A stretch of DNA of 64,000 nt from Limnohabitans sp. Rim8 (GTDB taxonomy: Bacteria > Pseudomonadota > Gammaproteobacteria > Burkholderiales > Burkholderiaceae_C). Both the position numbers and the translations under genes were made by a program. The notes beneath the pieces are model-generated. The model was not told the origin of the DNA, searched no databases, and saw only the letters and a program-made list of their open reading frames with translations. The DNA is taken from positions 62,001 to 126,000 of the forward strand of contig CAMDFK010000001.1 in assembly GCA_945897465.1 (NCBI GenBank), read 5' to 3'. Position 1 is the stretch's first letter, and every line of letters starts with the position of its first letter. Below are positions 57,640-61,828 of the stretch, piece after piece.

Positions 57640-59019
57640 ATGCATATACATATCTTGGGCATTTGTGGCACCTTCATGGGGGGCTTGGCCGCGCTGGCCC
57701 GCGAGGCAGGGCATCGGGTGACCGGGTGTGACGCGGGCGTTTACCCCCCGATGAGCGACCAGTTGCAGGCTTTGGGCATCGAGCTGATCGAGGGTTTTGA
57801 CGCCGACCAGATGGCCCTGCAACCCGACATGTACGTGGTGGGCAACGTGGTCAGCCGCGCCCGATTGGCCGACGGCAACCCCAAATTCCCACTCATGGAA
57901 GCCATTTTGGAGGCCGGTGCACCGTACACCAGCGGCCCGCAGTGGCTGTCCGAGCATGTGCTCCAAGGCCGCCATGTGCTGGCGGTGGCGGGCACACACG
58001 GCAAAACCACCACCACCTCGATGTTGGCCTGGGTGCTGGAGCAAGCTGGTCTGCAACCGGGTTTTTTGGTGGGTGGTGTGCCGCTCAACTTTGGGGTCTC
58101 GGCCCGGCTTGGCAGGGGCAAGTACTTCGTGATCGAAGCGGACGAGTACGACACCGCCTTTTTCGACAAGCGCAGCAAGTTTGTGCACTACCGCCCGCGT
58201 ACCGCCATCCTGAACAACCTCGAGTTCGACCACGCCGACATCTTTGACGACCTCTCTGCGATTGAACGCCAGTTCCACCACTTGGTACGCACCGTACCCG
58301 GCTCGGGCCGGGTGGTGGTCAACGGCCTAGAGGAAAGCCTGACGCGCGTGCTGGGTCAGGGATGCTGGAGCGAGGTGCGCACATTTGGCTCCGCTGTGAG
58401 CGACTTTGTGGCCGAGGGTGAGCCCTCGCAGTTCCAAGTTTTGCAGGCTGGGCAAGCGGTGGCCGAAGTGCAGTGGGCGATTGGCGGCGTGCACAACCAG
58501 CTCAACGCGCTGGCATCCATTGCGGCCGCCGAGCATGTGGGCGTGGCACCAAGTGTGGCGGCGCAAGCCTTGGCCGCCTTTGAAAACGTCAAACGCCGCA
58601 TGGAGGTGCGTGGCTCCGTCCAACGCGAAGGGGGTGGCATCACCGTTTACGATGACTTTGCCCACCACCCCACCGCCATCCGCACCACCGTCAACGGCCT
58701 GCGCCGTCAAGTGGGCCAAGCCCGCATCCTGGCGATTTTTGAGCCGCGCAGCAACACCATGAAGCTCGGCACCATGAAAGCCCAGCTGCCTTGGAGCCTG
58801 GAAGAAGCAGACTTGGCCTTTTGCCATTCGGGCGGACTGGGCTGGGATGCCACTGCAGCACTACTGCCCATGGGGGCAAAAGCGCAAGTGGGCGCCAACA
58901 TAGACGAAGTCATCGCCCAAGTGCTGGCACAAGTGCAGCCCGGCGACCACCTGCTGTGCATGAGCAACGGCGGCTTTGGCGGCATTCACGCCAAGCTGCT
59001 GACAGCCCTCAACGGCTGA
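57640..59019 (+). CDS. mpl: UDP-MurNAc:L-Ala-gamma-D-Glu-meso-DAP ligase Mpl
   Basis: 459 residues, Mur ligase fold. First domain: HILGICGTFMGGLAALARE (UDP motif), ATP loop VAGTHGKTTTTSMLAWVLE, then EADEYDTAFFDKRSKF, LNNLEFDHADIF, GVHNQLNALASIAAA, and the C-terminal VYDDFAHHPTAIRTT and FEPRSNTMK. It reattaches recycled tripeptide to UDP-MurNAc, the salvage partner of AmpD (46685). Complete and convergent with aroG. Confidence 0.97.
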   Translation: MHIHILGICGTFMGGLAALAREAGHRVTGCDAGVYPPMSDQLQALGIELIEGFDADQMALQPDMYVVGNVVSRARLADGNPKFPLMEAILEAGAPYTSGPQWLSEHVLQGRHVLAVAGTHGKTTTTSMLAWVLEQAGLQPGFLVGGVPLNFGVSARLGRGKYFVIEADEYDTAFFDKRSKFVHYRPRTAILNNLEFDHADIFDDLSAIERQFHHLVRTVPGSGRVVVNGLEESLTRVLGQGCWSEVRTFGSAVSDFVAEGEPSQFQVLQAGQAVAEVQWAIGGVHNQLNALASIAAAEHVGVAPSVAAQALAAFENVKRRMEVRGSVQREGGGITVYDDFAHHPTAIRTTVNGLRRQVGQARILAIFEPRSNTMKLGTMKAQLPWSLEEADLAFCHSGGLGWDATAALLPMGAKAQVGANIDEVIAQVLAQVQPGDHLLCMSNGGFGGIHAKLLTALNG

Positions 59020-60136
59020 GTGAACGACGCGCCTTCACCGCATCCGACAGCACCTGCAACACGCCTTCGCTGTCGTCCCAGCCGATGCAAGCGTCGGTGA
59101 TGCTCTGGCCGTAGGTCAGGTTTGCCACTTCGTGCTGACCGGGCGTGAACTTCTGGGCACCATCTTTCAGGTGGCTCTCAACCATGACCCCAAACACCTG
59201 GCGTGAGCCGCCGCTGATTTGTGCGGCGATGTCCTTGGCCACATCGATCTGGCGCTCGTGCTTTTTGCTGCTGTTGGCGTGGCTGCAGTCCACCATCAAG
59301 CTGGCAGGCAGCTTGGCGGCTTCGAGTTCCTTGCAAGCGGCAGCCACGCTTTCGGCGTCGTAGTTGGGGGCTTTGCCGCCGCGCAAAATCACGTGGCAGT
59401 CCTGGTTGCCTTGGGTCTGCACGATGGCGACCTGGCCATTCTTGTGCACCGACAAAAAGTGGTGACCACGTGCAGCGGCCTGGATCGCGTCGGTCGCGAT
59501 CTTGATGTTGCCGTCGGTGCCGTTCTTGAAGCCGATGGGGGCCGACAGGCCCGAAGCCAGTTCGCGGTGCACCTGACTTTCGGTGGTGCGTGCGCCGATG
59601 GCGCCCCAACTGATCAGGTCACCGATGTACTGGGGCGAGATCACGTCCAGGAACTCGCTGCCTGCGGGCAGGCCCTGGCGGTTGATCTCGATCAGCAGCT
59701 GGCGCGCGATGCGCAGGCCTTCGTCGATGCGGTAGCTCTCATCCAAATAGGGGTCGTTGATCAGGCCCTTCCAGCCCACGGTGGTGCGGGGCTTCTCAAA
59801 GTACACGCGCATCACGATTTCCAGCGTGTCGGCGTACTTCTCACGCAGGGGCTTGAGGCGTCGGGCGTAATCCAGCGCTGCAGCCGGATCGTGAATCGAG
59901 CAGGGGCCGATGATGACCAGCAGACGGTCGTCTTGGCTGTGCACGATCTTCTGAATGGCTTTGCGGGTGTGGGAGATCAGTGTTTCCGTGGCCGTGCCGG
60001 CAATCGGGAAAAAGCGGATCAAATGTTCTGGCGGTGGGAGCACGGTGATGTCCTTGATGCGTTCGTCGTCGGTCTGGCCTTTGCGGTCGGCGGCATTCGG
60101 ATACCAGCTCTCGGGGGCTGCGGTTTTGGCGTTCAT
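59009..60136 (-). CDS. aroG: 3-deoxy-7-phosphoheptulonate synthase (class I DAHP synthase)
   Basis: 375 residues; first step of the shikimate pathway (PEP + E4P). Landmarks: LLVIIGPCSIHDPAAALDYARRL, MRVYFEKPRTTVGWKGLIND, EFLDVISPQYIGDLISWGAIGARTTESQ-type block (cited as ISPQYIGDLISWGAIGART), FKNGTDGNIKIA, VILRGGKAPNY, MVDCSHANSSKKH (metal Cys/His/Asp region), and VESHLKDGAQKF. Clear GGAG 8 bp before ATG 60136. Its promoter side carries a leader peptide and attenuator, so expression probably responds to aromatic amino acid supply. Feedback type (Phe/Tyr/Trp) cannot be read from sequence. Confidence 0.97.
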   Translation of the reverse strand: MNAKTAAPESWYPNAADRKGQTDDERIKDITVLPPPEHLIRFFPIAGTATETLISHTRKAIQKIVHSQDDRLLVIIGPCSIHDPAAALDYARRLKPLREKYADTLEIVMRVYFEKPRTTVGWKGLINDPYLDESYRIDEGLRIARQLLIEINRQGLPAGSEFLDVISPQYIGDLISWGAIGARTTESQVHRELASGLSAPIGFKNGTDGNIKIATDAIQAAARGHHFLSVHKNGQVAIVQTQGNQDCHVILRGGKAPNYDAESVAAACKELEAAKLPASLMVDCSHANSSKKHERQIDVAKDIAAQISGGSRQVFGVMVESHLKDGAQKFTPGQHEVANLTYGQSITDACIGWDDSEGVLQVLSDAVKARRSLSR

Positions 60137-60165
60137 CGTGGACTCCTCAGATTAAAAAACAGGTG

Positions 60166-60199
60166 AAAAAAAACCGCCGGGCTTTGGGGCTCCGGCGGT
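60166..60199 (-). terminator. Attenuator terminator between the leader ORF and aroG
   Basis: Minus strand: ACCGCCGG ... CCGGCGGT stem (8 bp) with an 11-nt loop followed by eight Ts. It lies 22 bp past the leader stop (60222) and about 30 bp before aroG. A second copy of the 3' arm (CCCCGGCGG at 60241-60249 within the leader ORF) can pair with the terminator's 5' arm, forming an antiterminator. Confidence 0.88.
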
Positions 60200-60221
60200 G
60201 TGTGTCGAGATGTTCGGGTGC

Positions 60222-60296
60222 TTATGCGCTCGCCTCTCGTCCGCCGGGGACTGAGAACCAAAAATAAAAAAAGTAAAAAGCGTTGCGCAGAGACAT
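60222..60296 (-). CDS. aroG leader peptide (aromatic amino acid attenuator)
   Basis: 24 codons plus TAA. Residues 7-14 are FYFFYFWF, eight consecutive codons for Phe, Tyr and Trp (60255-60278). Codons 16-19 contain the CCCCGGCGG segment that can pair with the terminator's 5' arm. So a ribosome stalled at the aromatic run leaves that segment free for antitermination, whereas one at the stop masks it. I see no clear Shine-Dalgarno before ATG 60296; a longer in-frame ATG at 60368 (overlapping the tldD stop) is the alternative. Established attenuators have this architecture. Confidence 0.87.
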   Translation of the reverse strand: MSLRNAFYFFYFWFSVPGGREASA

Positions 60297-60367
60297 GAGA
60301 TGCAATGTATCACAGGTCAATGACAATTCCTGACAGACTCGCCCAAGAGCAAACCCGAAAAGGCGCA

Positions 60368-61828
60368 TCAGGCCGTGCCACCCACGGTGAGACCGTCGAT
60401 GCGCAGCGTCGGTTGACCCACCCCCACGGGCACGCTCTGACCTTCCTTGCCGCAGGTGCCCACGCCCGAGTCGAGCTTCATGTCGTTGCCGATCATGCTG
60501 ATCTTCTTGAGCGACTCGGGGCCACTGCCGATCAGGGTCGCGCCCTTGACGGGGTATTGGATCTTGCCGTTTTCCACCCAATACGCCTGGCTGGCCGAGA
60601 ACACAAACTTGCCGCTGGTGATGTCCACCTGCCCGCCCGCGAAGTTGGTGGCGTACAAGCCCTTTTTGATGCTGGCCACGATTTCTTCGGCGCTCTTGTC
60701 GCCACCCAGCATGTAGGTGTTGGTCATGCGCGGCATGGGCACATGGGCGTAGCTTTCGCGGCGGCCGTTGCCCGTGGGCTTGACGCCCATCAATCGGGCG
60801 TTCATCGCGTCCTGGATGTAACCCCTCAGGATGCCGTCTTCGATCAGCACGTTCTTTTGACTGGCATGGCCTTCGTCGTCCACGTTCAGAGAGCCCCGGC
60901 GGTCGGCGATGGTGCCGTCGTCGAGAACGGTGACGCCCTTGGCCGCCACACGCTGGCCAATGCGACCACTGAAAGCGCTGGAGCCTTTGCGGTTGAAGTC
61001 GCCTTCCAGGCCGTGGCCAACGGCTTCGTGCAGCAGCACACCGGGCCAGCCATTGCCCAGCACCACCGTCATCTCGCCTGCGGGGGCGGGGCGGGCTTCG
61101 AGGTTGATCAGCGCGGCCGACACAGCTTCTTGCACATAGGTCTCGACCATGCCGTCGTCAAAGTAGGCCAAGCCAAAGCGGCCACCGCCGCCAGCGCTGC
61201 CGACTTCGCGGCGGCCGTTTTGCTCGGCAATCACCGTCACCGACAGGCGGATCAAGGGTCGCACATCGGCCGCCAAAGTGCCATCGGCGCGGGCCACCAT
61301 GACCACGTCGTATTCGGAGGCCAAACCGGCCATGACCTGCACCACACGCGGATCTTTGGCTCGAGCGATTTTCTCGACACGACCGAGCAAATTCACCTTG
61401 GCCGTGCTGTCCAGCGTGGACATCGGATCGAGCGACGGGTAAAGCGAGCGGCTGGCCGACACCTTGCGGGCCGGCACCTTGATGCGTTTGTTTTGCGTGG
61501 CTTGCGCGATGGTGCGCACCGTCATGGCCGCGTCCATCAAGCAGGCTTCGGAGATATCGTCCGAGTAGGCGAAGGCGGTTTTCTCGCCCGACACGGCACG
61601 CACACCCACACCTTGGTCGATGCTGAAGCTGCCGGTCTTGACGATGCCTTCTTCCAGGCTCCAGCCTTCGGAGCGGGTGTACTGAAAATACAGGTCGGCG
61701 TCGTCGACAGCGTGGGCCTTGATGGCGGCCAACGCCCGGCTCAGGTGGGTTTCATCCAGCCCAAAAGGCTCGAGCAAGAGGGATCGGGCCGTGGCCAAGC
61801 GTTCGATGGTGGGTTCGCGTGAAATCAT
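60368..61828 (-). CDS. tldD: Metalloprotease TldD
   Basis: 486 residues. Zinc site HEAVGH (267-272) in NGWPGVLLHEAVGHGLEGDF; with GVGVRAVSGEKTAFAYSD and DDGTIADRRGSLNVDDEGHA blocks, this is TldD rather than TldE (PmbA), which lacks the motif. TldD/TldE process peptides such as microcin B17 and CcdA. No tldE is adjacent. The ATG at 61828 is used; the open frame upstream to 62110 lies antisense of other genes. Its stop is just upstream of the aroG leader. Confidence 0.97.
   Translation of the reverse strand: MISREPTIERLATARSLLLEPFGLDETHLSRALAAIKAHAVDDADLYFQYTRSEGWSLEEGIVKTGSFSIDQGVGVRAVSGEKTAFAYSDDISEACLMDAAMTVRTIAQATQNKRIKVPARKVSASRSLYPSLDPMSTLDSTAKVNLLGRVEKIARAKDPRVVQVMAGLASEYDVVMVARADGTLAADVRPLIRLSVTVIAEQNGRREVGSAGGGGRFGLAYFDDGMVETYVQEAVSAALINLEARPAPAGEMTVVLGNGWPGVLLHEAVGHGLEGDFNRKGSSAFSGRIGQRVAAKGVTVLDDGTIADRRGSLNVDDEGHASQKNVLIEDGILRGYIQDAMNARLMGVKPTGNGRRESYAHVPMPRMTNTYMLGGDKSAEEIVASIKKGLYATNFAGGQVDITSGKFVFSASQAYWVENGKIQYPVKGATLIGSGPESLKKISMIGNDMKLDSGVGTCGKEGQSVPVGVGQPTLRIDGLTVGGTA

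Follow-up and report, generated by a model that had tools for sequence, protein, structure and literature searches.

The pheA and trp operon leaders of Gammaproteobacteria carry control codons and form 1:2, 2:3 and 3:4 helices, and each of them reads one amino acid on behalf of its own branch. Pooled sensing of several end products is known from the multi-amino-acid attenuators of ilvGMEDA and thrABC. Like the leader described here, the pheST attenuator of Enterobacteria (PheM leader) has an aromatic-rich ORF and a terminator before the gene, but the gene encodes a tRNA synthetase and the leader has no Trp. Attenuation of trpEDCBA and pheA is mentioned in PMC5343134, and the RNA of the rnTrpL/peTrpL system of Sinorhizobium meliloti, the trpE(G) attenuator, opens directly with its leader ORF (PMC7298713). 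A table of predicted attenuators of tyrA-linked operons includes those of aroA-tyrA (DAHP synthase) in Vibrio and of a pheA-tyrA cluster in Bordetella (PMC1173090); a DAHP synthase operon and a Burkholderiales genome are represented by these cases, but the operons concerned are others than aroG.

The locus considered here lies in a 64-kb stretch of DNA that was analysed as a whole (the window). Ahead of aroG, it has the same control-codon and helix logic as the pheA and trp leaders, but with codons for all three aromatic amino acids and a position before the common first step. On comparative sequence grounds, we consider ribosome-mediated transcription attenuation of aroG by the supply of Phe, Tyr and perhaps Trp the most probable reading (probability roughly 0.88). 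The proposed pooled sensing would resemble that of ilvGMEDA and thrABC, which belong to other pathways. An ORF at the 5' end is predicted as in rnTrpL/peTrpL, which by the account in PMC7298713 differs in reading Trp only, in its target gene and in its trans activity.

All elements of the locus are on the minus strand. Just downstream of the tldD stop (60368), which immediately precedes the leader region, comparison with relatives and the sequence itself point to an extended -10 promoter element, TGATACATT (60304-60312), and a transcription start is predicted at 60297-60296. The leader ORF MSLRNAFYFFYFWFSVPGGREASA (60222-60296, sequence and comparison) runs for 24 codons from an ATG at 60296 to a TAA at 60222. 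Its eight consecutive aromatic codons, FYFFYFWF, are found on direct reading at 60278-60255, where the preliminary description had placed them, and are assigned as control codons from the sequence and a codon model; Tyr11, Phe12 and Trp13 (60266-60258) are the best-placed of them in the model. Covariation identifies region 1 (TTCTC, 60253-60257) and GAGAG (60234-60238) as the 5' and 3' arms of hairpin 1:2, which spans 60257-60234 and encloses region 2 (CCCCGGCGG, 60241-60249), the 5' arm of the antiterminator. In the window sequence, the inner pairs of the hairpin (60251-60248 with 60242-60239) take region 2 bases. That CCCCGGCGG lies inside the ORF and could pair with the 5' arm of the terminator had been seen from the outset, and covariation assigns this arm, region 3 (CCGCCGG, 60192-60198), to antiterminator and terminator alike.

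The 3' part of the intrinsic terminator (60166-60180, sequence and covariation) consists of region 4 (CCGGCGG, 60180-60174) and a T8 run (60173-60166). Direct reading of 60199-60166 bears out the 8-bp GC-rich terminator first noted, its stem including the pair A60199-T60173 and its loop measuring 11 nt. A spacer between the ORF stop and the terminator is present as described, but measures 23 nt to the CCGCCGG arm and not 22. The controlled gene, aroG/aroFGH (59009-60136), encodes a type I DAHP synthase of 375 aa, as judged by Pfam (DAHP_synth_1, E 8.2e-96) and NCBIfam (TIGR00034 above its cut-off, the AroG equivalog slightly under its own, 562.4 versus 568). A gene for an mpl-type Mur ligase on the plus strand (57640-59019) is convergent with aroG and overlaps its 3' end (59009) by 11 bases.

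A run of 8/8 aromatic codons, in any frame and on either strand, occurs once in the 64-kb window, and the three stretches with at least 7/8 all overlap the FYFFYFWF run. Neither kind of run appeared in 100 windows resampled with an order-1 Markov model. The tldD end at 60368, just upstream, would suit a chance aromatic ORF beside an ordinary terminator of tldD; we rejected this reading, which has a negligible probability, as it is contradicted by the resampling and by the family-wide conservation and covariation described below.

On folding, which the preliminary description had proposed as a check, the stability of the whole leader was not unusual (z -1.6, with 15 of 200 shuffles equally good). 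A mechanical terminator scan reported nothing at the leader because the 11-nt loop exceeds the limits of the scan (3-8), and a sigma-70 promoter scan of 60000-60600 found no promoter. The 24-residue peptide matched no leader family in Pfam or NCBIfam. With Rfam release 15 at the gathering score, the window yielded only a tRNA and 11 related loci only an SRP RNA. Within 60100-60420, the best Rfam E-value was 0.14, for unrelated families, Phe_leader and Trp_leader were unmatched, and no T-box riboswitch was among the three matches at E up to 10. An element already represented in Rfam was rejected for the window and the 11 related loci on the basis of these searches.

To follow the leader in relatives, a search with aroG was made, from which the best 80 of 590 named loci were taken; among 150 genomes of the family, 147 gave an aroG match at E <= 1e-120. 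With the threshold set at five aromatics within nine codons of a short ORF preceding aroG, 94 of 110 inspected loci pass and 16 fail; one inspected locus (L024) has only 10 nt of upstream sequence, and two leader-like ORFs with four aromatics (L013, L199) were scored as misses here and in the tree described below. After removal of a false pass (L078) and two duplicates (L063, L100), 91 distinct leaders formed an alignment (A1), from which a covariance model (R1) was built. Codon counts refer to 90 leaders, as the start of one row (L094) is unclear.

R1 matches were obtained in 146/150 family genomes. Training loci came from 30 of the 150 (29 contributed rows of A1, and one only L100, a duplicate of such a row), and in the other 120 genomes, some of which are perhaps close kin of named training loci, 116 matches were found. 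Two of the four genomes without a match (G055, G074) also lack an aroG match, and the other two (G043, G093) are 80% and 55% complete. A second, weak match was seen in only 2 of the 146 genomes (E 0.003-0.005). In 141 of the 146 cases, the main match precedes aroG on the same strand, at a distance of 15-139 nt (median 57) from the aroG match; for the remaining five, no aroG match is listed on the same contig. In one genome, where a single leader precedes two tandem DAHP synthase genes (G140:C27:140841-143211), the distance was taken from the copy nearer the leader. Loci fetched around the best R1 matches of the family and order searches had a DAHP synthase downstream in 38/38 cases.

The tight coupling to aroG and the single strong match per genome also bear on a reading in which control of aroG is secondary and the short ORF serves mainly to encode a small protein with a function of its own, or the terminated RNA to act in trans as a small RNA. 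There is precedent in rnTrpL/peTrpL of S. meliloti, for which an RNA that starts with its AUG and acts in trans is described (PMC7298713). As the main role, however, this is very improbable given the coupling, with which an added role of this kind would be compatible. By analogy, one might imagine that termination yields a stable small mRNA of about 131 nt, itself leaderless, that also acts in trans, as RNA or as aromatic peptide, and that the leader-aroG unit is a portable sensor of the "aromatic pool" moved between Burkholderiales and other proteobacterial lineages, a combination that we regard as speculative and improbable.

Attenuation as the main function is supported by the RNA helices of the 91 leaders. 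In helix 1:2 (A1 columns 60-64 with 90 and 86-83), 92.5% of cells are paired, and two-sided changes occur at 5/5 pairs, the covariation count being taken on the outer helix only. The antiterminator 2:3 is paired in 87.6% of cells, with 37 two-sided cells versus 16.9 in shuffles, and the terminator 3:4 in 88.0%. For each of the three helices, the percentage paired and the covariation score were reached by 0/500 shuffles, and controls in which the helices were slid paired in at most 61% of cells. Other measures were less extreme: the number of two-sided pairs was reached by 18/500 shuffles for 2:3 and by 120/500 for 3:4, further pair types were reached by 37/500 and 10/500, respectively, and two slid controls came close in two-sided cells (9 versus 10 for 1:2, 21 versus 30 for 3:4). 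Because the shuffles ignore relatedness, the helix statistics are to be read as strong, but not as formal probabilities.

Helices 2:3 and 3:4 have region 3 in common and are mutually exclusive. Four terminator pairs (153:180, 154:179, 155:178 and 157:176) are invariant in 91/91 leaders. At the antiterminator pair 76:156, GC has changed to AU in three leaders; the terminator partner remains G in these and pairs there as a G-U wobble, indicating that 2:3 is selected apart from 3:4. Taken alone, the three helices of the window have energies of -9.7, -12.6 and -15.3 kcal/mol. The locus thus combines an ORF of aromatic codons, an intrinsic terminator, an antiterminator that overlaps the ORF and a 1:2 hairpin that overlaps the control codons. 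The preliminary description had suggested a search of related Burkholderiales for conserved short aromatic ORFs and covarying hairpins, and both were found (146/150 family genomes, three helices). Its claim of a leader-peptide attenuator upstream of aroG is strongly backed by the conservation, by covariation in the competing helices and by where the control codons sit; hairpin 1:2 and the probable leaderless start (see below) are additions to it.

The position of the control codons was analysed with a simple model in which the ribosome occludes the RNA up to 15 nt beyond the first base of the P-site and only the downstream RNA folds, the upstream RNA being ignored; codon positions are those of the A-site relative to region 1. 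The modelled probability of the antiterminator before region 4 has emerged is 0.76 at codon -10, 0.90 at -5, 0.96 at -4 and 0.99 at -3 to -1, and then falls to 0.89 at 0, 0.25 at +1 and 0.002 at +2. In the 90 leaders, the fraction of aromatic codons is 0.64, 0.83, 0.89, 0.58, 0.93, 0.99, 0.79 and 0.78 at codons -7 to 0, and 0.01 or less at +1 and beyond. The agreement is sharp at the 3' end of the run; the end of the aromatic run coincides, in the model, with the start of antiterminator blocking by a stalled ribosome. Stalls at -3 to -1 are separated only modestly from ribosomes further upstream, and the aromatic fraction is higher at -5 (0.89) than at -1 (0.79). As leaders were picked by aromatic content, aromatic counts are in part built in.

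With region 4 present, the antiterminator reaches a leader average of 0.42-0.45 at codons -3 to -1, 0.20 at -8 and 0.001 at +1, and the terminator 0.52-0.56 at -3 to -1. In the leader of the window, a ribosome as early as codon 2 already leaves 2:3 at 0.99 as long as region 4 has not emerged, and hairpin 1:2 appears weak in the equilibrium model; with region 4 present, the terminator stands at 0.97-0.98 at every ribosome position. Since the terminator wins at equilibrium everywhere in the window's leader, a switch would have to be kinetic.

The most common residues at -3, -2 and -1 are Tyr (67/90), Phe (89/90) and Trp (69/90). A nascent-chain arrest peptide, in which the hydrophobic aromatic chain itself would sense a small molecule and halt the ribosome, the codons counting only through the residues they specify, could explain why Phe at -2 is nearly invariant and Tyr and Trp are frequent at -3 and -1. 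Yet the residues before the run vary, the commonest reaching only 25, 33 and 18 of 90 at -10, -9 and -8, and at -7 to -3 F and Y interchange, A or G also occurring at some of these positions. Past the run, the residues track the conserved RNA, which lies in differing codon phases (78, 11 and 1 of 90), and the run stops where the geometry of codon stalling stops. An arrest peptide therefore seems highly unlikely. The same phases (78, 11 and 1 of 90 leaders) hold for region 1, so that RNA and peptide constraints are separable. Between Burkholderia and Comamonadaceae, the hairpin 1:2 RNA (A1 columns 61-86) is kept while the codon phase differs.

For codon-dependent stalling, it has to be asked which amino acids are read. 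The nine control codons include F, Y and W in 73/90 leaders, F and Y without W in 16/90 and F alone in 1/90. Phe is encoded by TTT in 250/363 control-region codons, versus 117/725 in the aroG genes of the same loci. Stalling at any of the three aromatic codons, as originally proposed, is backed at the sequence level by the 73 leaders with all three, and we lean towards an effective reading of all three amino acids. A real attenuator that effectively senses Phe and Tyr, with an incidental Trp codon, is a less probable but serious alternative: the control region of 17/90 leaders has no W, the inspected Oxalobacteraceae leaders end in FYFS or YFYFS with no W, and W contributes just 74 aromatic codons, compared with 363 for F and 154 for Y. 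On the other hand, W occupies codon -1 in 69/90 leaders, and codons -3 to -1 most often read YFW (53/90).

In 59/90 leaders, a close match to TGNTACATT (at least 7/8 positions) has its end 6-9 nt ahead of the ATG, compared with 26/18000 mononucleotide-shuffled upstream sequences (gap 5-9); it was only by comparison with these relatives that the extended -10 element of the window was recognised. None of the 94 passing loci, all of which were counted, has a Shine-Dalgarno core ahead of its leader ATG (GGAG, GAGG or AGGA at -16 to -5), whereas 81/90 aroG starts have one. The close extended -10 element and the missing Shine-Dalgarno core together point to a transcript that begins with AUG in the window and its nearer relatives, and we think it likely that the leader in the window is translated from a 5'-AUG, i.e. 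by a leaderless start. The close -10 box is absent from Burkholderia and Oxalobacteraceae leaders, which probably have a short untranslated 5' end. In loci of two families outside the class (f244, f247), a TATA-like box again lies 4-7 nt from the ATG on its upstream side, although these matches are short and loosely scored.

The steps that we infer, from the start of transcription through stalling of the ribosome and termination to a response to each amino acid, would combine as follows. Transcription would begin at or beside the leader AUG, and a ribosome would load on the 5'-AUG and trail the RNA polymerase. When charged tRNA-Phe, -Tyr or -Trp runs short, the ribosome would stall in the aromatic run and cover region 1, leaving region 2 free to pair with the emerging region 3, so that the terminator is blocked and aroG is transcribed. 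If all three aromatics are plentiful, the ribosome would pass over region 2, or hairpin 1:2 would close behind it. With region 2 unavailable in either case, region 3 would pair with region 4 and transcription would terminate at the T8 run.

The preliminary description had considered this a candidate new regulatory system. It is a new example, but of an already known type, since multi-amino-acid leaders are precedented, as are leaderless ones by the account in PMC7298713. What is unusual in the aroG leader, as read from its sequence, is the target, the common first step, and the putative three-amino-acid readout. No description of an aroG leader of Burkholderiales was found in open-access titles and abstracts, and an earlier prediction in subscription papers is possible. 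If correct, the proposed attenuation would explain how entry into the shikimate pathway is controlled in many Burkholderiales, with one RNA element reading the end products together, and would add an RNA family unmatched by Rfam release 15. It would also offer a natural, probably leaderless leader peptide for dissecting control-codon position, amino acid identity and antiterminator pairing, for which the model predicts the codon positions that matter.

The leader before aroG, very probably an attenuator, is shared by many Burkholderiales. Beyond the family, R1 matches are weaker; they extend through the order and into a few other proteobacterial families, for the most part ahead of DAHP synthase genes. 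R1 matches were found in 62/250 genomes of the order, 10/274 of the class and 34/249 of the phylum, own-family genomes being counted in each; the phylum count includes five weak matches (G780, G830, G875, G764 and G771, E 0.003-0.008). Ten order-level matches (G160, G161, G168, G200, G204, G207, G208, G214, G236 and G245) adjoin aroG by coordinates, and another (G193, E 0.008) is not near a listed aroG match. Among 28 order-level aroG loci chosen without R1 preselection, an aromatic leader that starts with ATG is present in 13, missing in 14 and doubtful in one (L169). Five weak matches at the class level (L151-L155, E 3e-4 to 3e-3) were rejected as chance terminators, as no aromatic leader precedes a DAHP synthase there. 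A weak match to an aromatic leader before pheS (L202 in G815, E 8.7e-4), whose peptide we take to be E. coli PheM, served as an unplanned positive control.

At the phylum level, all 14 matches in f244 (5), f247 (8) and f251 (1), and the three in f63, adjoin a DAHP synthase by coordinates. Of these 17 loci, ten were fetched in the phylum search and two more in the class search, and all of those fetched have leaders with aromatic codons, the weakest being L199 with four aromatics out of nine codons; four of the genes downstream were confirmed by NCBIfam. The loci L193-L201, from f244, f247 and f251 genomes of 3-9 Mb outside the class, have aromatic leaders of the same architecture, for example MITVATSYFWYFSYDSLLAAGGSRSI, before a type I DAHP synthase.

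No leader was found at the inspected loci of Polynucleobacter (L026, L028, L030), Cupriavidus (L035, L038) and Enterovibrio (L073, L078), or before the second DAHP synthase copies (absent in 8/8 examined). In L026, tldD ends about 30 nt before aroG, so that leader, promoter and terminator seem to have been lost. The nearest tree kin of the Polynucleobacter loci, L157 and L158, are likewise without a leader. An ORF with five Trp codons in L191 was rejected as a leader because it lies inside the gene and out of frame.

A tree was calculated for 147 DAHP synthases, 115 with and 32 without a leader according to an automatic labelling rule that miscalls L199. The leader label requires 12 changes on this tree, at least six of them being forced by well-supported branches. 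Compared with a mean of 29 changes for shuffled labels, this indicates that the leader tracks gene lineages, with several gains or losses. The leader-bearing aroG genes of f63, f244, f247 and f251 are placed beside the Burkholderiales family f4 (support 81-94) in this tree, which is rooted by midpoint only and has some long branches, and this suggests a possible transfer of the leader-aroG unit between Burkholderiales and these lineages. Three MAG contigs labelled Planctomycetota or Verrucomicrobiota (L050, L052 and L054) encode DAHP synthases that are 63-69% identical to that of the window and fall in the same clade as Burkholderiales, reflecting either mis-binned contigs or transfer.
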